Below are positions 25,986 through 45,063 of a stretch of 64,000 bases of DNA, piece after piece. Numbering within the stretch: position 1 is the stretch's first letter; every line of letters starts with the position of its first letter. This stretch comes from Thiemannella venezuelensis (GTDB lineage Bacteria; Actinomycetota; Actinomycetes; Streptosporangiales; Streptosporangiaceae): assembly GCF_014203605.1 (NCBI RefSeq), contig NZ_JACHJJ010000010.1, positions 62,001 to 126,000 on the forward strand. The letters run 5' to 3'. The translations under genes and the position numbers were made by a program. The notes beneath the pieces are model-generated. The model was not told the origin of the DNA and ran no database searches. It was given only the letters and a program-made list of their open reading frames with translations.

Positions 25986-27920
25986 ATGACCGTGCCGCCT
26001 GAGGAGCTTCGACCGGCCGCTGCATCCCCGGTGCCGCCGGCATCCCCTGTGTCCCCGGCATCCCCTGTGTCCCCGGCGTCCCCGCCGTTCCCGCCGGCCA
26101 CGCGCGAGCGGTGGCGGGAACTGGCGCTCGGGGTGCTGCGCAAGTCGGGGGTGGAGGCCGCCTCCCCGGAGGAGGCGCTGGCCTCGGCGACCTACGACGG
26201 CGTGACCGTCGCGCCGCTCTACGACCTCTCCGACCTCCCCGGCGATCCCGGCCTGCCCGGGCTCGCCCCCTACACGCGCGGCTCCCGCCCGGTGACCGGA
26301 GGCTGGGAGGTACGGCAGCGCCACGAGACGGCCGACTCCGAGGCCGTCCTCGCCGACCTGGAGAACGGCGTCACCTCGCTCTGGCTCGCCCTGGCGCCGG
26401 AGGACCTGCCGCGGGCGCTCGACCGGGTCCACCTGGAGCTGGTCTCGGTCGTGCTGGACGCGGGGGAGCGGACCCGCGAGGCGGCGGAGACCCTGTTCGC
26501 GCTCGCCGCCGAGCGCGGGGTGCGCGCCCTCACCGGGAACCTGGGCGCCGACCCGCTCGCCGACCCCTCGGCGGCCGCGGAGCTGGCCCGCAGGTGCGCG
26601 GCGGACTTCCCCGGCCTGCGCGCGGTGGCCGTGGACGCGACGCCGTACCACGACGCGGGCGGGAGCGACGCCGAGGAGCTCGGCTGCTCGATCGCGGCCG
26701 GCGTCGCCTGCCTGCGGGCGCTGACGGAGGCCGGGCTCACCGCGGAGCAGGCGTTCGGGCAGCTCGAGTTCCGCTACGCCGCCACCGCCGACCAGTTCCT
26801 CACCATCGCCAAGCTCCGCGCGGCGCGCAGACTCTGGGCCCGGGTCGCCGAGGTGTGCGGGGCCGGCGGGGGGGAGCCCGCCCCCGGCCGGGCGGATCCC
26901 GCCGGGCCCGGACCGCGGCGGGCGGCGGGCGGGCAGGTGCAGCACGCGGTGACCGGCTCGGCCATGATGACGGCCCGCGACCCGTGGGTGAACATGCTCC
27001 GCACCACCCTGGCCTGCTTCGCGGCCGGGGCGGGCGGCGCCGACGCGGTGACCGTCCAGCCGTTCGACGCCCGGCTCGGCCTGCCCGACGCCTTCGCCCG
27101 GCGCATCGCGCGCAACACCCACTCCCTGCTGGTCGAGGAGGCCGGGGTGGCCCGGGTGACCGACCCGGCGGGCGGCTCCTTCTACGTCGAGCGGCTCACC
27201 GAGGACCTGGCGGCCGCGGCGTGGGAGTGGTTCCGCGGGATCGAGCGGGCGGGCGGCATGGCCGCGGCCCTGGACTCCGGGCTGGTCGCGGAGCGGCTGG
27301 CCGCCACGAGGGAGCGGCGGTCGGCGAACATCGCCCGCCGCCGCGACCCGATCACCGGGGTCAGCGAGTTCCCGAACCTCGCCGAGCGGCTCCCGGTGCG
27401 GGCGCCCGGGCCGGGAGCGGCGGGCACGGAGCCGGGAGCGGAGGCGGCAGTGGCAGCGGGCGCGGAGCCGGAGCCGGGGCGGACCGGCCTGCCCCGGATC
27501 ACCTACGCCCGGGAGTTCGAGGCGCTGCGCGACCTGGCCGACGCCCGGGACGAGCGCCCGAGCGTCTTCCTGGCCACGATCGGCCCGGTGGCCGCGCACA
27601 CGGCCCGGGCCTCGTTCGCGGCCAACCTGTTCCAGGCCGGCGGGCTGGCCACCGTCCCCGGCGGGCCCGAGACCGACCCGGACCGGATCGCCGCCGCCTT
27701 CGCCGCCGCCGGCACGCCGGTGGCCTGCCTGTGCTCCAGCGACCGGTTGTACGGCGAGCACGCCGAGGCCGTGGCCGCGGCGCTCAGGAAAGCCGGGGCG
27801 CGGAAGGTCTGGCTGGCGGGGAAGGGGTCCTACGAAGGCGTGGACGGCGTCCTCTTCGCCGGATGCGACGTCCTGGCCGTGCTCCGCACGACCTTCGGCG
27901 ACCTGGGGGTGACCCGGTGA
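25986..27920 (+). CDS. mutA: Methylmalonyl-CoA mutase small (beta) subunit
   Basis: A 644-residue subunit that pairs with MutB. It keeps the TIM-barrel family sequence ([86 protein letters not shown]) and a C-terminal Rossmann-like domain. It lacks the cobalamin-ligating DxHxxG of the large subunit, as expected. The N-terminus has a Pro/Ser/Ala-rich tract encoded by short direct repeats near 26,030-26,085. A Gly/Ala/Glu-rich insertion lies near residues 476-500. The mutase interconverts succinyl-CoA and methylmalonyl-CoA, feeding propionate metabolism and polyketide extender supply. Confidence 0.95.
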
Positions 27921-28000
27921 GATCCCATCGACGGACGGGAGGCGGCATGGCGGGCACGCGGTCCGGCGGGACTGTGCGAGACCAGGGGGTGACCCGATGA
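27903..28000 (+). repeat. Duplicated mutA-mutB junction sequence
   Basis: GGGGGTGACCCGGTGA (27905-27920), which contains the mutA stop, recurs exactly 80 bp later as GGGGGTGACCCGATGA (27985-28000). The second copy has the TGA overlapping the mutB ATG. Over 20 bp the copies differ at two positions. The arrangement suggests that an ancestral ATGA overlap was split by an ~80-bp duplication or insertion. Confidence 0.6.
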
Positions 28001-30204
28001 TTCCGGACTTCTCGGGGATCGAGCTGGGCGGCCGGGCGCAGGCCGCGCCGGACGGTCCGGACCGGTGGGCGCGGGCCGTGCGGGAGGAGACCGGGCGGGC
28101 CCCGGACGAGCTGCTCTGGGAGACGCCCGAGGGGATCGGGGTCAAACCGCTCTACACGGCCGCCGACACCGCCGGCCTGGAGTTCCCGCACACCTACCCG
28201 GGCGCGGTGCCGTACGTGCGCGGGCCGTACCCGACGATGTACGTCAACCAGCCGTGGACCATCCGGCAGTACGCCGGGTTCTCCACCGCCGAGGAGTCCA
28301 ACGCCTTCTACCGGCGCAACCTGGCCGCCGGGCAGAAGGGCCTGTCGGTCGCCTTCGACCTGGCCACCCACCGCGGCTACGACTCCGACCACCCCCGGGT
28401 GGCCGGCGACGTCGGCATGGCGGGCGTGGCGATCGACTCGATCTACGACATGCGGCAGCTGTTCGACGGGATCCCCCTCGACCGGATGAGCGTGTCGATG
28501 ACCATGAACGGCGCGGTGCTCCCGGTGCTCGCGCTCTACATCGTGGCCGCCGAGGAGCAGGGGGTGGAACCGGAGCAGCTGGCCGGGACCATCCAGAACG
28601 ACATCCTCAAGGAGTTCATGGTCCGCAACACCTACATCTACCCGCCGGGACCGTCGATGCGGATCATCTCCGACATCTTCGCCTACACCAGCGAGAGGAT
28701 GCCGAAGTTCAACTCGATCTCGATCTCCGGCTACCACATCCAGGAGGCCGGGGCCACCTGCGACCTGGAGCTCGCCTACACCCTCGCCGACGGCGTGGAG
28801 TACCTGCGGGCGGGCGTGGAGACCGGGCTGGACGTCGACCGGTTCGCGCCGCGCCTGTCGTTCTTCTGGTGCATCGGCATGAACTTCTTCATGGAGGTCG
28901 CCAAGCTGCGGGCCGCCCGCCTGCTCTGGTCCCGGCTGGTGGCGGGCTTCGGCGCGAAGGACCCCAGGTCGCTGTCGCTGCGCACCCACTCGCAGACCTC
29001 CGGCTGGTCGCTGACCGCGCAGGACGTGTTCAACAACGTCGTGCGGACCTGCGTGGAGGCGATGGCCGCCACCCAGGGCCACACCCAGTCGCTGCACACC
29101 AACGCCCTGGACGAGGCGCTGGCCCTGCCGAGCGACTTCTCCGCGCGCATCGCCCGCAACACCCAGCTCCTGCTCCAGCAGGAGTCGGGCACCTGCCGGG
29201 TGATCGACCCGTGGGGCGGCTCCTACTACGTGGAGCGGCTCACGCACGAGCTGGCGGAGCGGGCGTGGGGTCACATCCAGGAGGTCGAGGCCGCCGGGGG
29301 CATGGCGAAGGCGATCGACGCCGGGCTGCCCAAGCTCCGCATCGAGGAGGCCGCCGCCCGCACCCAGGCGCGCATCGACTCCGGGCGGCAGCCGGTCATC
29401 GGCGTCAACAAGTACCGGCCGGACGCCGACGAGCCGATCGAGGTGCTCAAGGTCGACAACACCGCCGTGCGGGCCAGCCAGCTGGAGAAGCTGCGGAGGC
29501 TGCGCGCCGAGCGCGACCCGCGCGCGGTGGAGGAGGCGCTGGCCGCCCTTACCGGGGCCGCCGGTGCCGCGGTGAACGGCACCCGGGCGCCAGGCCTGGA
29601 GCAGAACCTGCTCGCGCTGGCGGTGGACGCGGCCCGCGCGAAGGCCACGGTCGGCGAGATCTCCGACGCGCTGGAGAAGGTCTTCGGGCGGCACGCCGGG
29701 CAGATCCGCACGATCTCCGGGGTGTACCGGGAGGAGGCGGGGTCCGGCGTGGACGGAGTCCGTACGGCGTGCGCGGAGTTCGAGAAGGCCGAGGGCCGGC
29801 GCCCGCGCATCCTGGTCGCCAAGATGGGCCAGGACGGTCACGACCGGGGGCAGAAGGTGATCGCCACCGCCTTCGCCGACCTCGGCTTCGACGTCGACGT
29901 CGGCCCGCTGTTCCAGACGCCCGAGGAGGTCGCCCGCCAGGCGGTCGAGGCCGACGTGCACGTGGTCGGCGTCTCCTCGCTGGCGGCCGGGCACCTGACC
30001 CTGGTGCCCGCGCTGAGGCGGGCGCTGGCGGAGCTGGACGCCGACGACATCATGATCGTCGTCGGCGGCGTCATCCCGCCCGGCGACGTCGCCGAGCTGC
30101 GCGCGGCCGGGGCGTCCGCGGTCTTCCCGCCGGGCACCGTGATCGCCGAGGCCGCCCTCGACCTGCTGGGGGACCTGTCGGCCCGGCTCGGCCACGCCTC
30201 GTGA
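27997..30204 (+). CDS. mutB: Methylmalonyl-CoA mutase large (alpha) subunit
   Basis: A 735-residue catalytic subunit. The TIM barrel binds the CoA ester ([68 protein letters not shown]). The C-terminal cobalamin domain has [11 protein letters not shown] with the cobalt-ligating His near residue 615, and [11 protein letters not shown]. It works as a heterodimer with MutA in the cytoplasm using adenosylcobalamin. It is followed after six bases by meaB, so mutA-mutB-meaB form one operon. Confidence 0.97.
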
Positions 30205-30210
30205 GGTGCC

Positions 30211-31182
30211 GTGAGAGCCCTTGAGGAGTACGTCGAGGGGGTGCGGTCCGGGTCGAGGCGCTGGCTCGGCAGGGCCGTCACCCTGGTGGAGTCCACCAGG
30301 GCCGACCACCGGGAGCTGGCGCAGCGGCTGCTGGTCGAGCTGACCCCGCTCGCCGGGAACGCCCGAAGGGTGGGCGTCTCCGGCGTGCCCGGCGTCGGAA
30401 AGTCCACGTTCATCGACGCGCTCGGCACCCACCTGACCGGCCGGGGCCACCGGGTGGCGGTGCTCGCCGTGGACCCGTCGTCCACCCGGACGGGCGGCAG
30501 CGTGCTGGGCGACAAGACCCGGATGGCCCGGCTGGCGGCCGACGACGACGCCTTCATCCGGCCCTCGCCGACCTCGGGGACGCTGGGCGGGGTCGCCAAG
30601 GCGACCCGTGAGGCCATGGTGGTGGTCGAGGCGGCGGGATACGACGTGGTGATCGTGGAGACCGTGGGCGTCGGCCAGTCGGAGACGGCCGTCGCGGACA
30701 TGGTGGACACCTTCCTGCTGCTCGCGCTGGCCAGGACCGGGGACCAGCTCCAGGGCATCAAGAAGGGCGTGCTGGAGCTGGCGGACGTGATCGCGGTCAA
30801 CAAGGCCGACGGCCCGCACGAGGCGGACGCCCGCCGGGCCGCCCGGGAACTGGCCGGGGCGCTGCGGTTGCTCCGCTCCGAGCGGGCGGTGCCGGTCCTG
30901 ACGTGCAGCGGGTTGGCGGGCACGGGCCTGGAGGAGCTGTGGCGGCAGGTCGCCGCGCACCGGGACGCGCTGGAGGCCTCCGGCGAGCTGGCCGCCAGGC
31001 GCAGGCGCCAGCAGGTCGGCTGGACCTGGGCCATGGTCACCGACCGCCTGCTCCGGAGGCTGCACGAGCACCCGGGCGTGATCGCCGTCGCGGGGGAGGC
31101 GGAGCGCGAGGTCCTGGACGGCACGCTGACCCCGGCCCTGGCCGCCGACCGCATCCTCGCGGCCTTCACCCGGGACGGCTGA
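30211..31182 (+). CDS. meaB: Methylmalonyl-CoA mutase-associated GTPase chaperone MeaB
   Basis: A 323-residue G3E-family GTPase. The P-loop is GVPGVGKST at residues 58-66, followed by VLAVDPSSTRTGGSVLGDKTRM, VIVETVGVGQSE (switch and G3 region) and the base-specificity motif NKAD. MeaB loads and protects the cobalamin cofactor of the mutase by GTP-driven gating. The GTG start follows GAGGTG, six bases after mutB. The C-terminal helical dimerisation arm (QQVGWTWAMVTDRLLRRLHEHPGV) is present. Confidence 0.95.
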   Translation: MRALEEYVEGVRSGSRRWLGRAVTLVESTRADHRELAQRLLVELTPLAGNARRVGVSGVPGVGKSTFIDALGTHLTGRGHRVAVLAVDPSSTRTGGSVLGDKTRMARLAADDDAFIRPSPTSGTLGGVAKATREAMVVVEAAGYDVVIVETVGVGQSETAVADMVDTFLLLALARTGDQLQGIKKGVLELADVIAVNKADGPHEADARRAARELAGALRLLRSERAVPVLTCSGLAGTGLEELWRQVAAHRDALEASGELAARRRRQQVGWTWAMVTDRLLRRLHEHPGVIAVAGEAEREVLDGTLTPALAADRILAAFTRDG

Positions 31183-31507: not shown

Positions 31508-32908
31508 ATGGCGATTTCGATCGGCGCAGGGGCCGGGACCGCACGGCGGGTGAGGTCCGTTCCGATCCGCAGGGCGCTGCGGAGGCTGACGGAGGACCCT
31601 GCGGAGGCCCTCCTGGAGTTCGCCCAGGAGGCCGGCGGGGAGGTCGTCCGGCTGGAACTGGGGCCGTTCCGCCCCTACCTGGTGACCCACCCCGACCACG
31701 TCCAGCAGGTGATGCGCCTGGAGTGGACGAACTACCAGCGGGTGGGGATGTTCTGGCGGCCGCTGGAGCGGTTGTTCGGGCACAGCATCATGGGCGACGG
31801 CGAGCCCTGGCGCACCAGCAGGGACATCCTGCAGCCCCTGTTCACCACCCGCTACATCGCCACGATCGCCGAGGAGGTGTCGGCCCGGGTCGCCGGGCGC
31901 ATCGAGGAGTGGGACGAGCACGCCCGGGCGGGGCGGAGCATCGACGCCACCGCCGAGATGTCCGGCATCCTCACCTACATCGTCAACAGGGTGCTGTTCG
32001 GGGACAAGCTGAGCAGGGAGGACGCGGAGCGCATCGTCCCGGCCTTCGACCTGGTCTCCCACTCGCTCGTCTACCGGTTCCTCATGCCGTTCATGCCCTA
32101 CTTCATCCGGGTGCCCCGCGACCGGGCCTGCCTGCGGGGCGTCAAGCAGATCGACGACGTGGTCTTCCCCGTGGTCGAGAGGGCGATGGCGAACCCCGAC
32201 GACGGCCTCGACGTCATCTCCGTGCTCTGCCGCTCCACCAACCCCGACGGCCGGCCGCTCACCGCCAAGCAGATCCGCGACGCCCTGGTCAGCGTGTACG
32301 CCGCGTCGTCGGAGACCACCGCGATGATCCTCACCTGGCTCTGGCTGATCCTGGAGGAGCACCCGGACGTCGCGGCCCGGCTCCAGGCGGAGATCGACGA
32401 GGTCGTGGGGGACGGGCCGGCCCGTCCCGAGCACGTCCCGCGGCTCGCCTACACCCGCATGGTCCTGCTGGAGAGCCTGCGCCTGTACCCGTCGGGCTGG
32501 CTCCTGCCCCGGCAGGTCATGGAGGACGCGGAGATCGGCGGCGTGCGGATCAAGGCCGGGGCGACGGTGCTGATCAGCTCCTACGCCACGCAGCGGCTGG
32601 AGGAGTTCTGGGACCGCCCGAACGAGTTCGACCCCGAGCGGTTCGCCTCCGACAAGGGTCCGGACGGGGAGCGCAGGCACAGGTACTCCTACTTCCCCTT
32701 CGGCGGCGGCCCGCACAAGTGCCTGGGCGAGCACCTGTTCTACGTGGAGGCGCCGCTCGTGGTCGCCGCCATCCTCAGCCGGTACCGCATCTCGGTGCGC
32801 ACCCCGGGGCCCTTCACCGTCGCGTGGGCCGCCTCGCTGCGGCCCAAGGGCAGGATCGAGCTGGGCGTCTCCTTCGCCGGACGCGACCGGAGCGTGGTCC
32901 CCTCATGA
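31508..32908 (+). CDS. Cytochrome P450, first gene of the terpene operon
   Basis: A 466-residue P450. The I-helix oxygen-binding segment is VYAASSETTAMIL (usual (A/G)GxxT region, with E-T-T). The K-helix ExxR is ESLR in MVLLESLRLYPSGW. The heme loop is FPFGGGPHKCLGEH with the thiolate Cys near residue 405. The sequence type (VTHPDHVQQVMR...DGEPWRTSRDILQPLFTTRYI) resembles CYP102/CYP4-like fatty acid or terpene oxidases more than the small CYP105 type. It presumably oxidises the terpene made by the two following genes. The ATG is preceded by GGGAGAGG. Its TGA overlaps the next ATG, so translation is coupled. No ferredoxin gene lies nearby. Confidence 0.93.
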   Translation: MAISIGAGAGTARRVRSVPIRRALRRLTEDPAEALLEFAQEAGGEVVRLELGPFRPYLVTHPDHVQQVMRLEWTNYQRVGMFWRPLERLFGHSIMGDGEPWRTSRDILQPLFTTRYIATIAEEVSARVAGRIEEWDEHARAGRSIDATAEMSGILTYIVNRVLFGDKLSREDAERIVPAFDLVSHSLVYRFLMPFMPYFIRVPRDRACLRGVKQIDDVVFPVVERAMANPDDGLDVISVLCRSTNPDGRPLTAKQIRDALVSVYAASSETTAMILTWLWLILEEHPDVAARLQAEIDEVVGDGPARPEHVPRLAYTRMVLLESLRLYPSGWLLPRQVMEDAEIGGVRIKAGATVLISSYATQRLEEFWDRPNEFDPERFASDKGPDGERRHRYSYFPFGGGPHKCLGEHLFYVEAPLVVAAILSRYRISVRTPGPFTVAWAASLRPKGRIELGVSFAGRDRSVVPS

Positions 32909-33789
32909 CGGCACGGTCCGATGCCGGCTCCTGGCCGGCGGCGACGGAGAGCGGAGCGGTCTGCGCGGGGGCCGGGCGGGCCCAGCGGGACATGTCCGAG
33001 TGGGCGCGGGAGTACCCGGGGCTTTTCTCCGCCAAGCCGTTCGACGCGGCGCTGTACAGCACGCTCTCGCTCGCCATGGCGTTCAGCGGGCCGTGGCTCA
33101 CCGCGGAGCGGCTGCGGATGGCGAACAAGACCACCCTCTGGGCGTTCGGACTGGACTGGCTCGTCGACTACGTCGCCACTTCGGAGACGGAGGTGGAGGA
33201 CATCGCCCGGCGGTGCCTGGACGTGGCCGCGGGCGCCCCGGCGGCCGACGGGGACGACCTCACCCGCATGCTCGCCGGCATCCGGGACGAGCTCGCCTCC
33301 TCGCCGGCCTTCGCCGTGCTCGGGCCGGTCTGGCGCGACGAGCTGGAGCGCATGCTGGACGGGATGCTCACGGAGTGGCGCTGGAAGAGCGAGAAGGCCG
33401 TGCCGGCGTTCGAGGAGTACCTCGGCAACGCCGACAACCTCGGCTTCTCCTTCGTGTTCGCCGCCCACTGGATCCACACCGCGGACGGCGGGGAGGTCGC
33501 GGACGTCGAACGGCTGCGCGAGGCGGGCCGGGCCGTGCAGCGGGTCATCCGCCTCCTCAACGACCTGGGCACCTACGAGCGCGACCTCGCCTGGGGCGAC
33601 CTCAACGCCCTGGCGCTCGGCACGGACCGCGCCGGGGTCGAGCGGCAGGTCGCCGAGCTCGCCGCCCGGAGCCGGGAACTGCTCGCCCCGCTGTACGGCG
33701 GGCACCCGGAGCTGGCCCGCTACATGGAGCGGCAGATGGACTTCTGCGCCGGGTTCTACCGGGTGGGCGACTACTGGGGGACGCTGTGA
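32905..33789 (+). CDS. Class I terpene synthase/cyclase
   Basis: A 294-residue single alpha-domain terpene synthase, typical bacterial length or slightly short. The aspartate motif is FGLDWLVDY (D84xxxD88), a variant of DDxxD. The NSE-type triad is NDLGTYERD (N219, T223, D227). These bind Mg and the diphosphate for ionisation. The protein starts with ATG overlapping the P450 stop and ends with TGA overlapping the start of the class II cyclase. The pairing predicts that it ionises the bicyclic diphosphate made by the class II enzyme, as in bacterial labdane-type pathways. The product is not predictable from sequence. Confidence 0.88.
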   Translation: MTARSDAGSWPAATESGAVCAGAGRAQRDMSEWAREYPGLFSAKPFDAALYSTLSLAMAFSGPWLTAERLRMANKTTLWAFGLDWLVDYVATSETEVEDIARRCLDVAAGAPAADGDDLTRMLAGIRDELASSPAFAVLGPVWRDELERMLDGMLTEWRWKSEKAVPAFEEYLGNADNLGFSFVFAAHWIHTADGGEVADVERLREAGRAVQRVIRLLNDLGTYERDLAWGDLNALALGTDRAGVERQVAELAARSRELLAPLYGGHPELARYMERQMDFCAGFYRVGDYWGTL

Positions 33790-35435
33790 GCGCCGGGCCG
33801 CCGGATCCGGACGTGGCCGCCGAGGCGGGGGAGCTGGTCGCCGGGCTGCTGGCCGAGCCCTGGGGGCAGGTGTCCGCCTCGCCGTACGAGACCGGCCGGG
33901 TGGTGAGCCTGGCCCCGTGGTTGTCCGGGCACGCCGCCCGGGTCGATTTCCTGGTCGCCGCCCAGCGGGCGGACGGGAGCTGGGGGCCGCCCGGCGGCTA
34001 CGGCCTCGGGGCGACGCTGAGCGCGGTCGAGGCGCTCCTGGCCGAGCTCCGGCGCGAGAGCCCCTGCGCCGATCCCGGCCTCCTGGCCAAGGTCGCCGCC
34101 CGGGGGCTGGAGGCCGTGCGGGACAGGCCGGTTCCGGCGGGTGACCTGCCGGACCTGCCGGCGATCGAGCTCATCGTGCCCTCCCTGGTCGCCCGGATAG
34201 GCGCGCACCTCGACCGGGGGGTTCCGGGCGCGGGCGACCTCCGGCTGGGCGCGCTGCGGCCGGAGCCGCCCGCGGGCATGGGGGGCGCGAAGCTGGCGGC
34301 CGTCAGGGCGTGGCTCGCCTCCGGCGCGGAGGTCCCGCAGAAGCTGGTGCACGCCCTGGAGGTCGCGGGACCGGAGGCGGTGGCCGCCTGCGGGATCGCC
34401 CCCGCGCCGATGCCCGGCGGGATGGCGGCCCTGGGCGCCTCGCCCGCCGCGAGCGCGGCCTGGCTGGCCGTACCTCGGGGGCCGGGGAAGGGCGCGGGGC
34501 GGGACCCCGGACCGGACGGGGAGGGCGCGCCGTACGGCCCGGCCCGGCCCGCCGGGCAGGAGGAGGCCGTCCGGCGCTACCTGGAGGCGGTCGCGGCCGC
34601 CGGCGGGGGGCCGGTGCCGTGCACCCTGCCCATCACCGTGTTCGAGCGCGGCTGGACGCTGAGCTGGCTGCGGCGCGCCGGCGTTCCCGTGGAGGTGCCG
34701 GAGGAACTGGTCGCGAGCCTGCGGGACGGGCTCGGCCCGGACGGACTCGCCACCGGGCCGGGGCTGCCCGCCGACGCCGACACCACCTCCGTCGCGCTGT
34801 ACGCCCTGGCGCTGCTCGGCGAGGCGCGCGAGCCGGAAGGGCTGTGGCGGTTCGAGACGGAGACCCACTTCTGCACCTGGCGCGGAGAGGAGGGGACGTC
34901 CCTGACGACCAACGCGCACGTGCTCGACGCCTTCGGCGAGTACGTGCGCAGGTGCGGAGGGGAACCCCGCCACACGGCCGTCGTGGCCGGGCTGGCGGCC
35001 TGGCTCCGCGACCGCCAGGGCCGGGACGGGAGCTGGACGGACCGCTGGCACGCCTCGCCGTACTACGCCACCGCCTGCTGCGCGATCGCGCTGCACGAGT
35101 TCGGCGGCGAGGAGTCCGCCGGCGCGGTGGCGGCCGCCGTGGACTGGGTGCTCGGCACCCGGCGCCCGGACGGGTCGTGGGGCCGCTGGGAGGGCACCGC
35201 GGAGGAGACCGCCTACGCGCTGCAGACTCTGCTGCTGGCCGGAGCCCCGCGCGAGGGGCGGTGGATGGAGGCCGTGGACCGGGGGTACCGCCGGTTGCTG
35301 GACCTGAGGGCGGGCGGGGCGCCGCCGCCGCTCTGGGTCGACAAGGACCTGTACCTGCCGGTGGCGATCGTGCGGGCGGCCATTCTGGGAGCGATTCATC
35401 TGGCGCGGCGCGCTCTGTCCGTTACGGCAGGGTGA
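33786..35435 (+). CDS. Class II terpene cyclase (DxDTT type, beta-gamma fold)
   Basis: A 549-residue protein with the layout of class II di/sesquiterpene cyclases. QW-like repeats are QRADGSWGPPGG near residue 60, DRQGRDGSWTDRW and TRRPDGSWGRWEG toward the C-terminus. The catalytic acid motif is LPADADTTSVALYAL, that is D330-A-D332-T-T334 (DxDTT), a variant of DxDD seen in drimenyl- and merosterol-type cyclases. It would cyclise GGPP or FPP by protonation and keep the diphosphate for the class I enzyme. GTG overlaps the upstream stop. A Gly/Pro/Asp-rich insert near residues 230-258 looks flexible. No prenyl diphosphate synthase lies in the window. Confidence 0.88.
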   Translation: MSAGPPDPDVAAEAGELVAGLLAEPWGQVSASPYETGRVVSLAPWLSGHAARVDFLVAAQRADGSWGPPGGYGLGATLSAVEALLAELRRESPCADPGLLAKVAARGLEAVRDRPVPAGDLPDLPAIELIVPSLVARIGAHLDRGVPGAGDLRLGALRPEPPAGMGGAKLAAVRAWLASGAEVPQKLVHALEVAGPEAVAACGIAPAPMPGGMAALGASPAASAAWLAVPRGPGKGAGRDPGPDGEGAPYGPARPAGQEEAVRRYLEAVAAAGGGPVPCTLPITVFERGWTLSWLRRAGVPVEVPEELVASLRDGLGPDGLATGPGLPADADTTSVALYALALLGEAREPEGLWRFETETHFCTWRGEEGTSLTTNAHVLDAFGEYVRRCGGEPRHTAVVAGLAAWLRDRQGRDGSWTDRWHASPYYATACCAIALHEFGGEESAGAVAAAVDWVLGTRRPDGSWGRWEGTAEETAYALQTLLLAGAPREGRWMEAVDRGYRRLLDLRAGGAPPPLWVDKDLYLPVAIVRAAILGAIHLARRALSVTAG

Positions 35436-35499
35436 CCGGCCCAGAAAAACCGCATTAAATTCATAAATAGGACAGAAGTGTGTATCTGGTCGGTTCCGC

Positions 35500-35528
35500 T
35501 TGAGGCTGTTTACTGACATTGCTAGGGT
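35500..35528 (+). promoter_or_regulatory. Predicted sigma-70-type promoter of the conservon
   Basis: TTGAGG (35500-35505), a 17-base spacer, then TAGGGT (35523-35528). It lies in an AT-rich 211-bp gap between the class II cyclase and the sensor kinase gene. This spacing is the optimum for the housekeeping sigma factor. Confidence 0.6.
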
Positions 35529-35604: not shown

Positions 35605-35646
35605 CATGTGTTACCTCCTTCTTTCTGTTTTCCCGGGGTGGATGCC

Positions 35647-38196
35647 ATGCGCTTGCGCAACGCGCGCTTGCGGACCAAAGTCACAGCGTTGCTGGTCTCA
35701 CTCATCGCGCTCTGGGCGTTCACGGCATGGGTGACCGTCCGTGACGGTCTGAACATGCTCGGCGTGGCCACTCTCAACACCGGCGTGGCCGACCCGGCCG
35801 AGTCGCTCATCGTCGAGCTGCAGGCCGAGCGCCGGCTCACCGCGGTGACCCTCGGCCGGCCCGGGACGGAGCGGCAGCGGCGCGAGGCGCTGGCCGCCCA
35901 GCGCGGGCGGACCGACCGCGCCGGCGCGGACTTCCGCGAGCGCACCGCCGGCACCGGCGTGGACGTGTTCGGCAGCGCGGGCCTGGAGCGCCGCATCACC
36001 GAGATCCGCGACCTCCTGGACGGGCTGGCCACCGCGCGCAAGGCGATCGACATGGGCGGGACGGACCGGGCGCAGGCCGCCGCGGTGTTCACCGGCGTCA
36101 TCGACGCCGTCTTCCGCTCCTACGACTCGATGGCCACGCTGGACGACGAGGAGCTCGCCAGGGACACCCGGACGCTCATCGCGATGAACCGGGCCCGCGA
36201 CCTGCTGGCCCAGGAGGACGCCCTCGTCATGGGCGCCCTGACGGAGGGGCGGCTCACCGACGACGAGCGGATCCAGCTGACCCGGATCGCCGGTGCGCGG
36301 AAGTTCCTCACCGACCAGGCGGTGGCCGAGCTGCCCGCCGCCGACCAGGAGGCCTACCGGCGGCTGGCGGACGGTGAGCGGTTCACCCGCCTGCGCTCCA
36401 TGGAGAACCTGCTGATCGGGACCAGGAACGCGGTGCAGACCGGGCTCGTCGACGCCGCGCGGTGGAGCGCCGACTCCCAGCCGGTGCAGGCCGGGTTCGC
36501 GGAGACCGTCCTCACGGCCGGCAGCGGGGTGGTGGAGCGCGCCGCCCCGGTCGCCGTCGGCGTCGTCGTCCGGCTCGTGCTGGCCGGCGGCCTGGGCCTC
36601 ATCGCCGTCATCGCCTCGATCGTGCTGTCCATCACCACCGCCCGCGCCCTGGTCCAGCAGCTGGAGAAGCTGCGCAACGCCGCCTGGGAGCTGGCCAACA
36701 AGCGGCTGCCGAGCGTGGTGGACCGGATCGGCCACGGCGAGGACGTGGACGTGGCGGCCGAGGCGCCGCCGCTGGAGTTCGGCGACGACCAGATCGGCCA
36801 GGTCGGCAGGGCGTTCAACGTCGTCCAGCAGACCGCGATCGGAGTCGCGGCCGAGCAGGCCCAGCTCCGGCGCGACATCGCCGACATCCTGCGCAACCTC
36901 GCCCGCCGCACCCAGGGCCTCGTCCACCGCCAGCTGAGCGTGCTGGACGCCATGGAGCGCCGGGAGCAGGACCCGCAGGAGCTGCGCGACCTGTTCCGCC
37001 TGGACCACCTGGCGACCCGTATGCGGCGCTATGCCGAGAACCTCCTCGTCCTGTCCGGCGCGGCGCCCGGCCGCGCCTGGCGGGAGTCGGTGCCGATGCT
37101 CGACGTGGTCCGCGGAGCGCTGGCCGAGATCGAGGACTACACCCGGGTGGACGTGCTGCCCATGGGAGAGGTGTCGCTGGACGGGCGGGCCGTCGGTGAC
37201 GTCATCCACCTGATCGCCGAGCTGGTCGAGAACGCGGCCTCCTTCTCCCCGCCCTACACGACGGTGAAGGTCAGCGGCCACATCGTCGCCCACGGGTACG
37301 CCGTGGAGATCGAGGACCGGGGCCTGGGCATGAGCCCGGAGGACATCGCCCTGGCCAACGAGCGCATCGCCAACCCGCCCGAGCTCAAGCTCTCCGGCAA
37401 CGCCCGCCTGGGGCTGTACGTGGTCAGCCGGCTGGCCGAGCGGCACGAGATCAGGGTGGCGTTCAAGGCCTCGCCGTACGGCGGCACGACCGTCGTCGTC
37501 CTGATCCCGCAGAGTCTGATCAGCGACCGGGAGGGCGCCCCCGCCGGCGGCGCCGCCCCGGTGCAGGGGGCCGCCGAGACGCGCGCCGTCTTGGCGTCCG
37601 CGGGCGCCCGGCTGAGCGTCCCCCCGGCCCGTACGGCGACCGCCGTCCCGGCGGATCCCCCCGCTCCCGCCGGCCCGGCCACCGGTCCCGCGGCGCCCGT
37701 CCGGGGCTGGGACCCGCTGGCGGGCGGCCCGGAGTCCTCCGGGACCCCCGGCCCGGGCGCCCCCGCTCCCGCCGCTCCCGCGTCCCGCGCTCCTGCGGAG
37801 GCCCCCGGCCCGGGCCTCCCCTCGGCGGCCGGTCCGCTCGCCGCCCCCGTGTCCCACGCTCCTGCGGAGGCCCCCGTGTCCACCGGCTCCCCGTCACCGT
37901 CCTCGCCCCCCCTCATGCCTGCCCCGGACACCAGCCACACCCCCGGAGGGCTGCCCCGCCGCGTGCCCCAGACCCACCTCGCCGCGCCGCTGCGGGAGGA
38001 CGAGCCGGCCCCGGAGCCGGCGCCCGCGACCGGGGGCGACGAACGCTCGCCGGAGGAGATCCGCGCCGCCTTCTCCTCGTTCCAGGCGGGGACGCGGCGC
38101 GGCCGGTCCGACGCCGCGCATCTGCTGGGCGAGGGCACCGGCCCGGGATCCCCGCAGGACGGCGGCTCCCCGGAAGGCGGGCGGCCGTCCATGTGA
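35647..38196 (+). CDS. cvnA: Conservon sensor histidine kinase with nitrate/nitrite-sensing-type extracellular domain
   Basis: An 849-residue membrane kinase. The first membrane helix (TALLVSLIALWAFTAWV) is followed by a ~250-residue extracellular NIT-type helical domain (residues ~35-290) with ESLIVELQAERRLTAVTLG at its start. A second helix (VVVRLVLAGGLGLIAVIASIVLSI) leads to a HAMP-like region, a dimerisation helix pair (RRTQGLVHRQLSVLDAMERREQDP) and a HATPase domain with N-box LIAELVENAASFSPP and G-boxes VEIEDRGLGMSP and GNARLGLYVVSRLAERH. The C-terminal ~200 residues are Pro/Ala-rich and disordered. It heads a CvnA-B-C-D conservon. The start ATG 35647 is preferred over GTG 35608, which lacks a ribosome site. 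Confidence 0.9.
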   Translation: MRLRNARLRTKVTALLVSLIALWAFTAWVTVRDGLNMLGVATLNTGVADPAESLIVELQAERRLTAVTLGRPGTERQRREALAAQRGRTDRAGADFRERTAGTGVDVFGSAGLERRITEIRDLLDGLATARKAIDMGGTDRAQAAAVFTGVIDAVFRSYDSMATLDDEELARDTRTLIAMNRARDLLAQEDALVMGALTEGRLTDDERIQLTRIAGARKFLTDQAVAELPAADQEAYRRLADGERFTRLRSMENLLIGTRNAVQTGLVDAARWSADSQPVQAGFAETVLTAGSGVVERAAPVAVGVVVRLVLAGGLGLIAVIASIVLSITTARALVQQLEKLRNAAWELANKRLPSVVDRIGHGEDVDVAAEAPPLEFGDDQIGQVGRAFNVVQQTAIGVAAEQAQLRRDIADILRNLARRTQGLVHRQLSVLDAMERREQDPQELRDLFRLDHLATRMRRYAENLLVLSGAAPGRAWRESVPMLDVVRGALAEIEDYTRVDVLPMGEVSLDGRAVGDVIHLIAELVENAASFSPPYTTVKVSGHIVAHGYAVEIEDRGLGMSPEDIALANERIANPPELKLSGNARLGLYVVSRLAERHEIRVAFKASPYGGTTVVVLIPQSLISDREGAPAGGAAPVQGAAETRAVLASAGARLSVPPARTATAVPADPPAPAGPATGPAAPVRGWDPLAGGPESSGTPGPGAPAPAAPASRAPAEAPGPGLPSAAGPLAAPVSHAPAEAPVSTGSPSPSSPPLMPAPDTSHTPGGLPRRVPQTHLAAPLREDEPAPEPAPATGGDERSPEEIRAAFSSFQAGTRRGRSDAAHLLGEGTGPGSPQDGGSPEGGRPSM

Positions 38197-38297
38197 CCCC
38201 AGCCATGATCTCGATTCGCGCATGAAGACCGCATGAAGACTCCGCGCCGACGAGCCGCCGGAGCCCGAGTGGCGGCCGGCAGAAAAGAGGACAACGA

Positions 38298-38729
38298 GTG
38301 GTGCAGGGAACAGGGTCCGTCACCGACCTGGCCTGGTTGCTGGACGACCTGGTCGCACGGGTGGCGGAGACCGAGCACGGGATCGTCTTCTCCACCGACG
38401 GCCTGCTCATGGCCGCCTCGGCGGGTCTCGACCCGGCCGACGCCGAGCATCTGGCCGCGGTGGGCTCGGCGATCCAGAGCCTGGGCCGGGGGGTCAGCGA
38501 CCGGGTCAGGGGCGGGGCGGTGCGCCAGACCATCATCGAGATGCGCTCGGCGTACCTGGTCGTCTCCACCGCGGGGCAGGGCGCCTGCCTGGCGGTGCTC
38601 TGCACGAACGAGGCCGACGTCGGCCTCGTGGCCTACGAGATGGCCATGCTCGTCACCCGGGTCGGGCAGTACCTCACCTCGCCCGCCCGGACGGTGGGCG
38701 CCGCAGGCGGAGGCGACGCGCCGCGATGA
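38298..38729 (+). CDS. cvnB: Roadblock/LC7 domain protein of the conservon
   Basis: A 143-residue protein of the Roadblock/MglB fold: LAWLLDDLVARVAETEHGIVFSTDGLLMAAS, HLAAVGSAIQSLGRGVSDRV, and LAVLCTNEADVGLVAYEMAML. In conservons this protein joins the kinase, the DUF742 protein and the small GTPase in a membrane-associated complex, by analogy with the GTPase/GAP pair MglA/MglB. It starts with GTG at 38298 after AGAGG, about 100 bases after the kinase gene. Its stop overlaps the DUF742 start by ATGA. Confidence 0.92.
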   Translation: MVQGTGSVTDLAWLLDDLVARVAETEHGIVFSTDGLLMAASAGLDPADAEHLAAVGSAIQSLGRGVSDRVRGGAVRQTIIEMRSAYLVVSTAGQGACLAVLCTNEADVGLVAYEMAMLVTRVGQYLTSPARTVGAAGGGDAPR

Positions 38730-39112
38730 ACCCTCGCGACGAGCATCCCGACGCCCAGTGGATCGGCGAGGAGGCCGGGCCGATCGTCCGGCCGTACGTC
38801 CTCACCCGGGGCAGGACGGAACCCACCCGCGGCCGGTTCGACCTCATCACCCTGGCGGTGGCCGTACGCTCTCCCTCCCCGGGGGAGCCGGGCGTCACCC
38901 CGGAGTGCCACGCCATCGTGCGGCTGTGCCGGCAGCCGCAGTCGGTGGCGGAGATCGCGGCGCACGTCAACCTCCCGGCGGGCACGGTCCGCGTTCTGCT
39001 CAGCGACCTGTTCGACCACGGGCTCATCACCCTGCAGGAACCACATTCGGAGACGGACATGCACGACGAGAGGATGTACAGGGCGGTGCTCGATGGACTC
39101 CGTGCGCTCTAG
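38726..39112 (+). CDS. cvnC: DUF742 protein of the conservon
   Basis: A 128-residue DUF742 protein: VRPYVLTRGRTEPTRGRFDLITLAV, ECHAIVRLCRQPQSVAEIAAHVNLPAGTVRVLLSDLFDHGLI. The C-terminal half is a winged-helix-like fold, though DUF742 proteins act as complex members and are not proven DNA binders. It overlaps cvnB at the start and cvnD by 20 bases at the end, so all are translationally coupled. Confidence 0.92.
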   Translation: MNPRDEHPDAQWIGEEAGPIVRPYVLTRGRTEPTRGRFDLITLAVAVRSPSPGEPGVTPECHAIVRLCRQPQSVAEIAAHVNLPAGTVRVLLSDLFDHGLITLQEPHSETDMHDERMYRAVLDGLRAL

Positions 39113-39722
39113 CCGCGACGCCGGGCGGGCGGTGCTGCCCAAGGCGATCAAGATCCTGGTCGCGGGCGGGTTCGGAGCGGGCAAGACCACCCTGGTCGGC
39201 GCGGTCTCCGAGATCGAGCCGCTGCGCACAGAGGAGACGCTGACCGACCGTGGCGTCGGGATCGACGACCTGTCGGGGGTGGAGAGCAAGGCCACCACGA
39301 CCGTCGCCATGGACTTCGGCCGGATCACCATCGGGGACGCCTACCGGCTCTACCTGTTCGGCACGCCGGGGCAGGAGCGGTTCTGGTTCCTCTGGGACGA
39401 GCTGGCGCTGGGCGCGCTGGGCGCGGTCGTGATCGCCGACACCCGCAGGCTGGCCGACTGCTTCCCCGCGCTGGACTACTTTGAGCGGCGGCAGACGCCC
39501 TTCGTCGTGGCGGTGAACTGCTTCGACGGCGCCCCCCGGTACGACCTGGACGAGGTCCGGCTGGGGCTGACCATCCCCGAGGACATCCCGATCGTGCTCG
39601 GCGACGCGCGCCGCCGGGAGTCCGGCAAGGAGATCCTCATCACCCTGGTGGAGCACGCGATGAGGACGCGCCTCGGCGGCTCCCCGTCCGCCGCCCCGGG
39701 ACGGCTGGAGACCATCCGGTAG
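39093..39722 (+). CDS. cvnD: Conservon small GTP-binding protein
   Basis: A 209-residue Ras-like GTPase. The P-loop is GGFGAGKTT at residues 25-33; VAMDFGRITIGDAYRLYLFGTPGQERFWFLWDEL holds switch I/II with the conserved TPGQERF; AVNCFDG stands in for NKxD. It ends with the usual short helical tail. It is the signalling output of the conservon, cycling between GTP and GDP states under CvnB and CvnA. It overlaps cvnC by 20 bases. About 120 bases of non-coding sequence follow. Confidence 0.93.
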   Translation: MDSVRSSRDAGRAVLPKAIKILVAGGFGAGKTTLVGAVSEIEPLRTEETLTDRGVGIDDLSGVESKATTTVAMDFGRITIGDAYRLYLFGTPGQERFWFLWDELALGALGAVVIADTRRLADCFPALDYFERRQTPFVVAVNCFDGAPRYDLDEVRLGLTIPEDIPIVLGDARRRESGKEILITLVEHAMRTRLGGSPSAAPGRLETIR

Positions 39723-39842: not shown

Positions 39843-41903
39843 ATGTGCGAAGATCCGGGCATGTCCCCGGCCATGGCGCGGGCCCTGGAGGACTACCGGG
39901 CGCTGCTGGCCGCCCACGGCGTCACCTGGGGCGAGGATCCCGTCTTCTACGTGAAGTCGATGGCGGCCGACGCCTACCTGATGGGTCCCCGCGACTTCTG
40001 GGGCGTCTGCTACCGGAAAGTCGCCGAACGCCACCCGGGCGCGGACGCCAGGGAACTGGAGGACCACCTGTGCGAGCTGGACATGGACGAGGTGGTCCGC
40101 GACGTCCTCGCCGGAGACCTGCCCGACAACCTCGCCGCGCTCCGGCTCACCCCGTCGGGCGCCGCGCTCGAGGCGCGGGCGCAGGCCGTGCTCCCCGGGC
40201 GGAGCCTGCGCACGACGCTGCTGGTCGACTCCTCCCGGGACGAGCCGTCCACCGTGCTGGTGGACGGCAGGGCCCACGTCGTGGGCCCGCGCGGCGCCCG
40301 GCTGATCGGGATCACCGGCGGGAGCCGGGTCGTCGCCGACGGCGAGCCGGTCGGCCTCGGGCCGCTGGTCCGCCCGGCGGCCGCCGCCCGCCTGCGGGTG
40401 CGCGCCGGCATGCCCTGCCGGTGGAGCGTGTACGGCGCGCACGGCCAGGGCTGGTACCCCGAGGGCGTCCCGCACCGGCGCGACGCCCACGTGCTGCCCT
40501 ACTTCCACGGTGACGACCTGGTGCTGGACGTCCCGGCCGAGCCGCTGACCGTCCGCGTCTGCCGGGGCATGGAGTACGGCTCCGCCGAGGTGGCGGTGAC
40601 CCCCGCCGCAGGGGAGGAGACCGCGGTCGAGCTGGTCCCGGGACGGCTCTACGACGCGGCGGCCCGGGGCTGGTACGGCGGGGACATGCACGTCCACCTC
40701 AACTGGGCCGGGGACATGGTCGGCACCCCCGCCCTCGCCGCCGCCATGCAGCACGGCGAGGACCTGCACGTGCTCAACCTGGTCGCCGGGAACGTCTCCT
40801 CGGCCCGGGTCTACGACGCCGAGGCCCTGGAGCACTGGGCGGGCAGGGACCTGCCCTGGTCCGACGCCGCCCACCTGGCCCGCGTCGGCGTCGAGTACCG
40901 CAACGACCTGCTCGGCCACTTCTACGCCTTCGCTCCCCAGGCCCCGCCCTCGCGCTTCCACACCGGCTTCCTCGGCACCGCGGACTGGCCGCCCAACAGC
41001 GCGGCCTGCGAGGAACTGCGCGCCCTGGGCGCCGTCACCGGCTACAGCCACCCCTTCCACGTGCCGATCTCCGAGGGCGACGGCCCGGAGGCGGCCCTGC
41101 TCTGGCGGCGCAACTGCTCGGCCCGGGAGATCGTCGCCGACGCGGCGCTCGGCCTCGTCGACGCCCTGGACGTGCTCAACCACTCCTCGGTCGAGGCCAC
41201 CGCGCTCGTCTACCGGCGGCTGATCGGGGCCGGCAACCGGCTGGCGGTGACCGCCGGGACCGACACCATGCTCTCCTTCGCCTGCCGGGGCAGCCAGTCC
41301 AGCCCGCCCGGCTGGGAGCGGGTCTACGCCCGCGTGGACGGCCCGCTCACCGCCGCCTCCTTCGCCGAGGCGATCCGGCGGGGCCGTACCTTCGCCACCA
41401 CCGGCCCCTGGCTGGAGCTCTCGGTGGACGGGCACGGGACGGGCGACACCCTGAGCCCGGAACCCGGGACCCGGGTCGCGATCACCGTCCGGTCGATCGG
41501 CCCGGAGGTGGAGCGGCTGGAGATCCGCACCTCCGCCGGGGTGCTCGCCGAGGGGCCCGGCGGCGAGCTGACCGCCGAGCTGGTCGTGGACGGGCCGGAC
41601 TACGTGGTCGCGACCGCCTCCGGCGGCCCGCACGAGCGCACCTTCCACCCCACGGGCGTGCACGCCCACACCAGCCCGGTCTACCTCGACGCGGGCGGCC
41701 GCCGCGTCGCCCGCGCCGAGGACGTGCGCTGGTGCCTGGAGTGGCTGGACGGGCTGGAGGCGATGGTCCGCGCCGAGGGCAGGTTCGAGAGCGAGCGGCA
41801 GCTCGACGACCACCTGGCCCTGTACGGCCGGGCCCGCGCGGTCTACCGGAGCCGGCTGGGCCGACCGCCCCCCGCGCCCCCGCCCGGGGCGGGAGGCGGG
41901 TGA
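39843..41903 (+). CDS. CehA/McbA-family metallohydrolase (PHP-like)
   Basis: A 686-residue protein. The PHP-like metal motif GGDMHVHLNWAGD lies near residue 280. Further His/Asp-containing segments follow (VTGYSHPFHVPISEG, VLNHSSVEA, LAVTAGTDTMLSF), as expected for a multinuclear metal site. The N-terminal ~270 residues are a separate beta-rich domain (LRTTLLVDSSRDEPSTVLVDG...). No signal peptide is seen, unlike some family members. CehA and McbA are carbaryl hydrolases, but most relatives have unknown phosphoester or ester substrates. The start is preceded by GGGGAG. The gene is monocistronic or runs into the small inhibitor gene 22 bases downstream. Confidence 0.85.
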   Translation: MCEDPGMSPAMARALEDYRALLAAHGVTWGEDPVFYVKSMAADAYLMGPRDFWGVCYRKVAERHPGADARELEDHLCELDMDEVVRDVLAGDLPDNLAALRLTPSGAALEARAQAVLPGRSLRTTLLVDSSRDEPSTVLVDGRAHVVGPRGARLIGITGGSRVVADGEPVGLGPLVRPAAAARLRVRAGMPCRWSVYGAHGQGWYPEGVPHRRDAHVLPYFHGDDLVLDVPAEPLTVRVCRGMEYGSAEVAVTPAAGEETAVELVPGRLYDAAARGWYGGDMHVHLNWAGDMVGTPALAAAMQHGEDLHVLNLVAGNVSSARVYDAEALEHWAGRDLPWSDAAHLARVGVEYRNDLLGHFYAFAPQAPPSRFHTGFLGTADWPPNSAACEELRALGAVTGYSHPFHVPISEGDGPEAALLWRRNCSAREIVADAALGLVDALDVLNHSSVEATALVYRRLIGAGNRLAVTAGTDTMLSFACRGSQSSPPGWERVYARVDGPLTAASFAEAIRRGRTFATTGPWLELSVDGHGTGDTLSPEPGTRVAITVRSIGPEVERLEIRTSAGVLAEGPGGELTAELVVDGPDYVVATASGGPHERTFHPTGVHAHTSPVYLDAGGRRVARAEDVRWCLEWLDGLEAMVRAEGRFESERQLDDHLALYGRARAVYRSRLGRPPPAPPPGAGGG

Positions 41904-42441: not shown

Positions 42442-43224
42442 ATGAACCGACTTGCTGAGACCGACCTGTCCGTCACGCTGTCCAAGAAGGAGGCGGCCGA
42501 GCGGCTCGACGCGGCCCTGCGGCGGCTGCTCCGGCTCCGCCTGATGCTCGGCGGGCAGATCGGCGACAAGCGGATCGGCCCTCCGCTCTGCGTCGTCTTC
42601 GAGGGCTGGGACGCCTCCGGCAAGGGCGGCGCGATCAAGCGGCTGGTCCGTCCGCTCGACCCCCGGCACGTCCGGGTCGCCCAGTTCGCCGCGCCGACCT
42701 ACGACGAGAAGCGCCACCATTTCCTCTGGCGGTTCTGGAAGGTCCTGCCCGGCTGGGGCGGCATGGCGGTGCTCGACCGCTCCTGGTACGGGCGGGTGCT
42801 GGTGGAGCGGGTGGAGGGCTTCGCCACCGAGGAGCAGTGGTCCCGTGCCTACGGGGAGATCGTCGAGTTCGAGCGGACCCTCGCCGCCGAGGGCATGATC
42901 ATGGTCAAGTTCTGGATGCACGTCTCGGAGGAGGAGCAGCTCCGCCGCTTCCGCGACCGGGCGGCGGACCCGCTCCGGGTCTGGAAGCTCACCGACGAGG
43001 ACTGGCGCAACCGGGACAGGCGCCCGCAGTACGAGGCCGCGGTGGAGGAGATGCTGGAGCGCACCGACCACCCGGACGCCCCCTGGCACGTGATCGCCGG
43101 GGACGACAAGCGGTACGCCCGGGTCGCGGTGGTGGAGACGGTCTGCGCGGCGGTGGAGGCCGAGCTGACGGCCCGCGGCTACGACCTGACCGACCCCGCC
43201 CCGGGCTCCGCCGGCGACGACTGA
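42442..43224 (+). CDS. ppk2: Polyphosphate kinase 2 family protein
   Basis: About 260 residues, one P-loop domain. Walker A is FEGWDASGKGGAIKRL (about residues 54-69), Walker B is AVLDRSWYGRVLVERVEGF, and the lid carries DEDWRNRDRRPQY. These are the diagnostic PPK2 motifs. It transfers phosphate between polyphosphate and nucleotides; whether the acceptor is AMP, ADP or GDP cannot be judged. A GTG at 42436 would add two residues, and neither start has a good ribosome site. The 3' end overlaps the convergent CATRA-like gene by 46 bases. Confidence 0.92.
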   Translation: MNRLAETDLSVTLSKKEAAERLDAALRRLLRLRLMLGGQIGDKRIGPPLCVVFEGWDASGKGGAIKRLVRPLDPRHVRVAQFAAPTYDEKRHHFLWRFWKVLPGWGGMAVLDRSWYGRVLVERVEGFATEEQWSRAYGEIVEFERTLAAEGMIMVKFWMHVSEEEQLRRFRDRAADPLRVWKLTDEDWRNRDRRPQYEAAVEEMLERTDHPDAPWHVIAGDDKRYARVAVVETVCAAVEAELTARGYDLTDPAPGSAGDD

Positions 43225-44696: not shown

Positions 44697-45018
44697 CGGC
44701 GGCCTCCTCCTCCCGCAGGGCATGGGTGACGAACGCTCCGATGCGCCGTATCGTCCTGTTGATCATCTCGGGTATCTCCACCGGGTCCTCGGGTGCGTCT
44801 CCCGAGGTGATGGGCCGAGGTCCGCCCCTTCTCCCGTCGGCCGACTCGATCTGGCTCAGGCACCCGAGGACGGCGGCTGTGTCGCCCGCCTCGACTGCCT
44901 GCTCCAATGCCGTGATCTCAGCGGAGACCTGCTCCCACTCCCGGGCGGACAGTGACCATCCTCGGACCCGCCCGAGCAGCTCCGCCGTCTCGTGAAGGCT
45001 CTCCTGGTAAGTGAGCAT
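44680..45018 (-). CDS. Small helical protein of the TPR-CHAT/CATRA operon
   Basis: A 112-residue, mostly helical, acidic protein: YQESLHETAELLGRVRGWSLSAREWEQVSAEITALEQAVEAGDTAAVLGCLSQIES, then a Gly/Pro loop and a second helix EIPEMINRTIRRIGAFVTHALREEE. It has no membrane segment. It lies between the CHAT protease and the CATRA-like gene and overlaps the latter's start by 17 bases. It is preceded by GAGGGGGAGG. I recognise it only as the small associated protein expected in such operons. Regulator or inhibitor of the protease or effector is inference. Confidence 0.75.
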   Translation of the reverse strand: MLTYQESLHETAELLGRVRGWSLSAREWEQVSAEITALEQAVEAGDTAAVLGCLSQIESADGRRGGPRPITSGDAPEDPVEIPEMINRTIRRIGAFVTHALREEEAAVDEDS

Positions 45019-45063
45019 CCTCCCCCTCGCTGTTCGAGACCATCCCTTCGGCGGTCGCGGACG

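Follow-up and report, generated by a model that had tools for sequence, protein, structure and literature searches.

A putative terp1-type diterpenoid pathway and an adjoining conservon form a conserved gene unit in Thiemannella venezuelensis

We analysed 64,000 nucleotides of Thiemannella venezuelensis DNA (contig NZ_JACHJJ010000010.1; this whole stretch is called the window, and coordinates are window positions). It carries genes for a cytochrome P450 (P450), a class I terpene synthase and a class II terpene cyclase, followed by a conservon with all four core proteins in order (cvnABCD, 35608-39722). The features are listed in Table 1. A preliminary description of this DNA had reported three enzyme genes overlapping by ATGA and GTGA; the genes are complete, and its coordinates proved exact to the base. 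Likewise, D330 and D332 within DADTT, D84xxxD88 and N219/T223/D227 of the class I enzyme and the QW-like repeats of the class II enzyme (QRADGSWG, QGRDGSW and RRPDGSWG in the translation) are present as described, and the P450 is complete, with intact I-helix, ExxR and FGGGPHKC haem motifs. The description was right about the three enzymes and overlooked the conservon as part of the same conserved block. The order P450-class I-class II-cvnABCD is found, identical, in more than 100 genomes, and since it recurs so widely the enzyme block lies far beyond chance. The Pfam matches were P450 (7e-67), Terpene_syn_C_2 for the class I enzyme (2.5e-14) and SQHop_cyclase_C for the class II enzyme (4.5e-12). 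Around the enzyme genes the G+C content is about 73%, similar to the flanking DNA.

Table 1. Genes and other features of the window discussed in the text.
Feature	Position	Strand	Remarks
mutA-mutB-meaB	25986-31182	+	methylmalonyl-CoA mutase and chaperone; directly upstream of the P450 gene
Promoter-like element 5' of P450	31253-31282	+	TTGATC-N18-GATACT; conserved, aligned across close relatives
P450 gene	31508-32908	+	466 aa, complete; upstream-most of the three enzyme genes
Class I diterpene synthase gene	32905-33789	+	294 aa; DWLVD (84-88), NDLGTYERD (219-227); 45% identical to Sat1646
Class II cyclase gene	33786-35435	+	549 aa, GTG start; DADTT (330-334); predicted copalyl diphosphate synthase
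Promoter-like element 5' of cvnA	35499-35528	+	CTTGAG...TTGCTAGGGT; conserved, aligned across close relatives
cvnA	35608-38196	+	sensor kinase-like; extracytoplasmic NIT domain and HATPase
cvnB	38298-38729	+	Roadblock/LC7 (Robl_LC7)
cvnC	38726-39112	+	DUF742
cvnD	39093-39722	+	small GTPase, P-loop GGFGAGKTT
686-aa protein	39843-41903	+	directly after cvnD; no Pfam match
CATRA and CHAT genes	43179-48858	-	CATRA-N/CATRA-C protein (caspase and TPR repeat associated); 1264-aa CHAT-domain (caspase-like) protein
Lowest G+C of the window	44-48 kb		68.7%
Tandem repeat	53161-53263		39-bp unit, 2.6 copies, 98%
369-aa protein	53268-54377		no Pfam match

The closest characterised relative of the three enzymes is terp1 of Salinispora arenicola. 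In PMC9814573, terp1 is cited as converting geranylgeranyl diphosphate (GGPP) via copalyl diphosphate (CPP) and isopimara-8,15-diene to the 19-ol; the enzymes SaDTS, SaCPS and CYP1051A1 are cited in PMC9814573 and PMC10301674. In E. coli the operon is reported to give isopimara-8,15-dien-19-ol, and pure culture is reported to have yielded no product (PMC9814573, PMC10301674). One Micromonosporaceae genome encodes a class I enzyme that matches Sat1646 at 98% identity (locus L231), and we therefore equate L231 with the terp1 locus; the genome was taken as S. arenicola or a near relative. L231 has the gene order P450-class I-class II and continues directly into cvnABCD. Its cyclase also carries DADTT and falls into one clade with the window cyclase. 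Identity to the window proteins is 44% for the P450, 44-45% for the class I and 49% for the class II enzyme. In the texts covered, terp1 is presented as three enzymes, with no mention of the conservon.

The preliminary description had proposed comparing the class II enzyme with characterised cyclases and had named a better alignment to squalene-hopene cyclases as a refutation of its reading; the comparison does not refute it. Its best solved match in the PDB is the ent-CPP synthase PtmT2 (5BP8; 5e-106, full length, 44% identity), followed by Tpn2 and Rv3377c, while squalene-hopene cyclases matched at 3e-8 across some 100 residues. In Pfam and NCBIfam the enzyme hits broad models for squalene/hopene-type proteins, with NCBIfam scores far under the equivalog cut-offs. 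We rejected a squalene-hopene cyclase identity on the NCBIfam score (44 bits against a cut-off of 431) and the poor PDB match. Among 121 distinct family sequences, 118 have the acid motif D-x-D-[T/S]-[T/S], 105 of them as exact DADTT; the window enzyme has the central acid D332, and a T in the fourth position like the terp1 cyclase and Rv3377c. PtmT2 differs in having DSDD and DKWH and stands outside the window clade. At the diphosphate-binding position where PtmT2, Tpn2 and Rv3377c have Lys, DRWH is found in 118/121. D519 (in WVDKDLY) aligns with PtmT2 D502, and at least 115 of the 121 sequences share this Asp. In PtmT2 it positions the water that quenches the cation at C17, and the equivalent residues are Gly485 in Tpn2 and Ala475 in Rv3377c (PMC9814783). 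In our tree the window and terp1 cyclases share a clade of 30 (support 94/89), and PtmT2, Tpn2, Rv3377c and the Streptomyces enzymes fall outside it. Because of the PDB matches, D519 and the tree placement, the class II enzyme is predicted to form CPP from GGPP.

Two other products were weighed. A rearranged skeleton, halimane as with Rv3377c or clerodane as with Tpn2, would fit the DxDTT variant of Rv3377c (DCDTT). However, the window cyclase keeps the Asp of CPP synthases where Rv3377c has Ala and Tpn2 has Gly, and it does not group with Rv3377c, which makes such a product quite improbable. A drimane sesquiterpenoid made from farnesyl diphosphate could be suspected since DxDTT is present in HAD-type drimenol synthases (PMC9128629). 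The window cyclase, however, is not HAD-like and is nearest to GGPP cyclases, and the terp1 cyclase, which likewise has DADTT, turns GGPP into CPP (PMC9814573), so we rejected the drimane route as very improbable. The structure 7XKX is Tpn2 and not a drimenyl diphosphate synthase. The preliminary description had left the substrate length open. The characterised relatives SaCPS, Sat1646/SaDTS and PtmT2 use GGPP or CPP, and with the window cyclase grouping with that of terp1 the length is hardly open any more.

The best solved relative of the class I enzyme is Sat1646 (7e-71), an isopimara-8,15-diene synthase that binds Mg2+ on D88/D92 of EDWQVD and on NDLASYERD (PMC9814573). All these ligands are kept in the window enzyme (D84, D88, N219, T223, D227), and those of the first motif in 121 of 123 class I family sequences. 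The DxxxD motif had been called unusual; it is in fact the same Mg2+ site as in Sat1646. In Sat1646, Tyr183 is the base of a Tyr183-Tyr288 dyad and the Y183F mutation shifts the double bond (PMC9814573). This dyad is not intact in the window enzyme, where Tyr288 is kept and Tyr183 is replaced by Leu179. Ala185 is replaced by Phe181. Given these two replacements, the window diene is probably an isomer other than isopimara-8,15-diene. The Tyr183 position varies across the 123 sequences (Leu in 40, Phe in 34, Tyr in 19, Cys in 15), which suggests that different lineages make different dienes. We tried to match the window diene to the 8(14),15-pimaradiene of Microbispora hainanensis through this position and dropped the idea, since this species has Cys there and the strain differs.

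Identity between the P450 and its counterpart at L231, which holds the position of CYP1051A1, is 44%. Its closest NCBIfam models are the albaflavenone and pentalenene oxygenases, both terpene P450s, with scores under the cut-off. The PDB matches include the Streptomyces P450 3DBG (CYP170A1).

As the preliminary description had noted, no prenyl diphosphate synthase lies in the operon. Four polyprenyl synthases are encoded elsewhere in the genome; by size and sequence, one is read as a long-chain type and three as short-chain candidates. For T. venezuelensis we infer the following reactions. GGPP made elsewhere in the genome would receive a proton from D332 in the class II enzyme and cyclise to a copalyl diphosphate, with the cation quenched at C17 by the water that D519 holds. 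The class I enzyme would then ionise it through Mg2+ on D84/D88 and N219/T223/D227 and form the third ring, giving a pimarane-type diene, a hydrocarbon that the P450 would oxidise. The enzymes thus most likely constitute a pathway to an oxidised pimarane-type, that is tricyclic, diterpenoid. Of the earlier proposal of an oxidised bicyclic di- or sesquiterpenoid, the coupling of class II enzyme, class I enzyme and P450 stands, while the bicyclic compound would be an intermediate only, since the closest characterised relative ends at a tricyclic pimarane.

Conservons place CvnA at the input, with CvnB and CvnC acting on the GTPase CvnD, and Cvn8 represses its adjacent biosynthetic cluster (PMC13343842). 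Because of these precedents, regulation of the adjacent diterpene genes is the simplest reading of the window conservon: CvnA would take in a signal via its NIT domain, and CvnB, CvnC and CvnD would relay it as a GTPase switch that sets when the pathway is on. The window set has the four core proteins in the usual order and differs from the described conservons in sitting behind diterpene genes, in belonging to a distinct CvnA group and in combining a NIT-bearing CvnA with a P450. The N-terminus MRLRNARL suggests that the true cvnA start is the ATG at 35647. The window CvnA matches NIT at 1.7e-39, and the domain is found in all nine CvnAs checked (window and eight relatives). The genome has ten cvnA genes. 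In a tree of 61 CvnA sequences, including 29 from cassettes and 30 paralogues, all 29 cassette proteins separate from 29 of the 30 paralogues (the paralogue group has support 92; the cassette-only branch has no support of its own).

The association of the enzymes with the conservon is seen in relatives of the same family, and we counted it in the best 80 named loci of a scan that yielded 312 relatives. The P450 and class II genes are followed by cvnA in all 80, across about 13 genera (among them Planobispora, Planomonospora, Streptosporangium, Nonomuraea, Microbispora, Microtetraspora, Actinomadura, Actinoallomurus, Herbidospora, Acrocarpospora, Sphaerisporangium and Planotetraspora). A conservon adjoins 21 of the 24 Micromonosporaceae loci that have a class I gene, the exceptions being L208, L225 and the degenerate L226. 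No conservon lies within about 10 kb of the remaining terpene synthase loci in the window genome (a geosmin-synthase-like two-domain gene on contig C4 and another on C30).

The conservon could be just a long-standing neighbour, linked without functional meaning. Its own promoter-like element before cvnA, the conservon-free L208 and vertical descent, which accounts for part of the common order, would agree with this. However, of the pairs of loci from different genera, 8.9% have an upstream and 2.7% a downstream outer gene in common, so the unit persists where its neighbourhood changes, and the whole unit is also borne on a Micromonospora zamorensis plasmid. In a Nonomuraea lineage the usual class I gene is absent (L062, L104, L106, L109-L112, L123, L129, L130, L139, L141, L144, L145 and L170) and, where readable, a divergent DDxxD synthase (about 25% identity, DDIAD) on the opposite strand separates the class II gene from cvnA; by sequence the synthase has been exchanged and the rest of the unit, conservon included, kept. 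Two Micromonospora genomes (L211 and L271; L213 and L270) carry P450-class I-cvnABCD and class II-cvnABCD on different contigs, and in L091 the two halves stand head to head; therefore each synthase keeps a conservon of its own. A second, differently built association is found on a Streptomyces anthocyanicus plasmid, with cvnABCD-P450-GGPP synthase-class II-P450-LrdC-like class I. This lrd-type labdane cluster (LrdC, 6OH6) resembles the window unit in its class II, class I and P450 genes and its adjoining cvnABCD. It differs in its GGPP synthase, DADD cyclase (38% identical), gene order and a CvnA without a NIT match. Against these observations we consider a meaningless linkage unlikely. L064 and L095 are Streptomyces class II clusters with DADD that adjoin a conservon, and L064 is completed by a P450, a GGPP synthase and an LrdC-like class I gene to form this second diterpene-conservon association.

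The operon may instead supply its own G-protein system with a ligand or modifier, with the oxidised diterpenoid, or the P450 itself, as the CvnA input. The separate conservon of each synthase and the grouping of the cassette CvnAs would suit this, as would the P450 accessories (CvnE) that have been proposed as sensory input in some conservons (PMC13343842). However, those accessories go with CvnAs lacking a sensory domain, whereas the window P450 stands beside a NIT-bearing CvnA, and we therefore read it as a biosynthetic enzyme; its catalytic motifs are also complete, and it moves together with the synthases. We regard such a circuit as doubtful. More speculatively, and with similarly low odds, the seven genes may be a widespread actinobacterial signalling unit, in which a G-protein system governs, and possibly also senses, an oxidised labdane-related diterpenoid of its own in a hormone/receptor-like manner, and exchange of the synthase between lineages changes the molecule.

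We favour a terp1-type diterpenoid pathway of three enzymes with a dedicated conservon that controls it, to which we assign a probability of about 0.7. Several points weigh against it. We found no characterised enzyme of this clade outside Salinispora in the literature, and the terp1 proteins are no more than 44-49% identical. The change of Lys to Arg in DRWH (118/121) and of Asp to Thr in DxDD are family-wide. At L208 the three enzymes occur without a conservon, and no target downstream of that system was found. When we looked for an operator common to the promoters of the P450 gene and cvnA, only two differing promoter-like elements emerged. TTGA-N17..20-G[AT]TA..[TA] occurs in 28 of 101 P450 upstream regions (0.5 expected from shuffles), and TTGCTAGGGT in 30 of 101 cvnA upstream regions (0 expected). 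Since a gap of 173-211 bp and a promoter-like element precede cvnA, the enzyme genes and the conservon are probably separate transcripts.

Of the genes flanking the unit, mutAB-meaB were considered as part of the pathway and rejected as local synteny, since they lie upstream in only 11 of the 80 named loci (Planobispora, Planomonospora and Streptosporangium). A protein without Pfam match follows cvnD. Further downstream, the CATRA protein lies beside the CHAT-domain protein, and the pair looks like a bacterial caspase-type conflict module; the lowest G+C of the window overlaps these genes. The tandem repeat borders the 369-aa protein.

Full-text searches returned no paper tying conservons to terpenes or diterpenes, which is weak evidence as most subscription papers lay outside the search. 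A precedent is given by indole prenyltransferase clusters (PMC3617294), likewise small biosynthetic clusters always found with a conservon; they differ in their chemistry and in having the conservon upstream of the biosynthetic genes. Pimarane- or kaurane-type compounds are known from genera carrying the unit, including Actinomadura geliboluensis (PMC11857663, PMC10301674), whose genome carries it (L163). That the unit is their source is a guess. The enzymes are of the known terp1 kind, and the new element is the seven-gene unit, whose pathway and signalling parts would be functionally coupled.

The conservon link may explain when such diterpenoids are made. Little is known of what conservons respond to and act on, and the terp1 compound is not seen when S. 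arenicola is grown in pure culture (PMC10301674). With a conservon lineage linked to a single defined pathway across many species, both questions become testable. The unit is also a genetic candidate for orphan diterpenoids of Microbispora, Actinomadura, Micromonospora and Streptosporangium (PMC10301674, PMC11857663), and it offers a route to finding silent clusters and switching them on.

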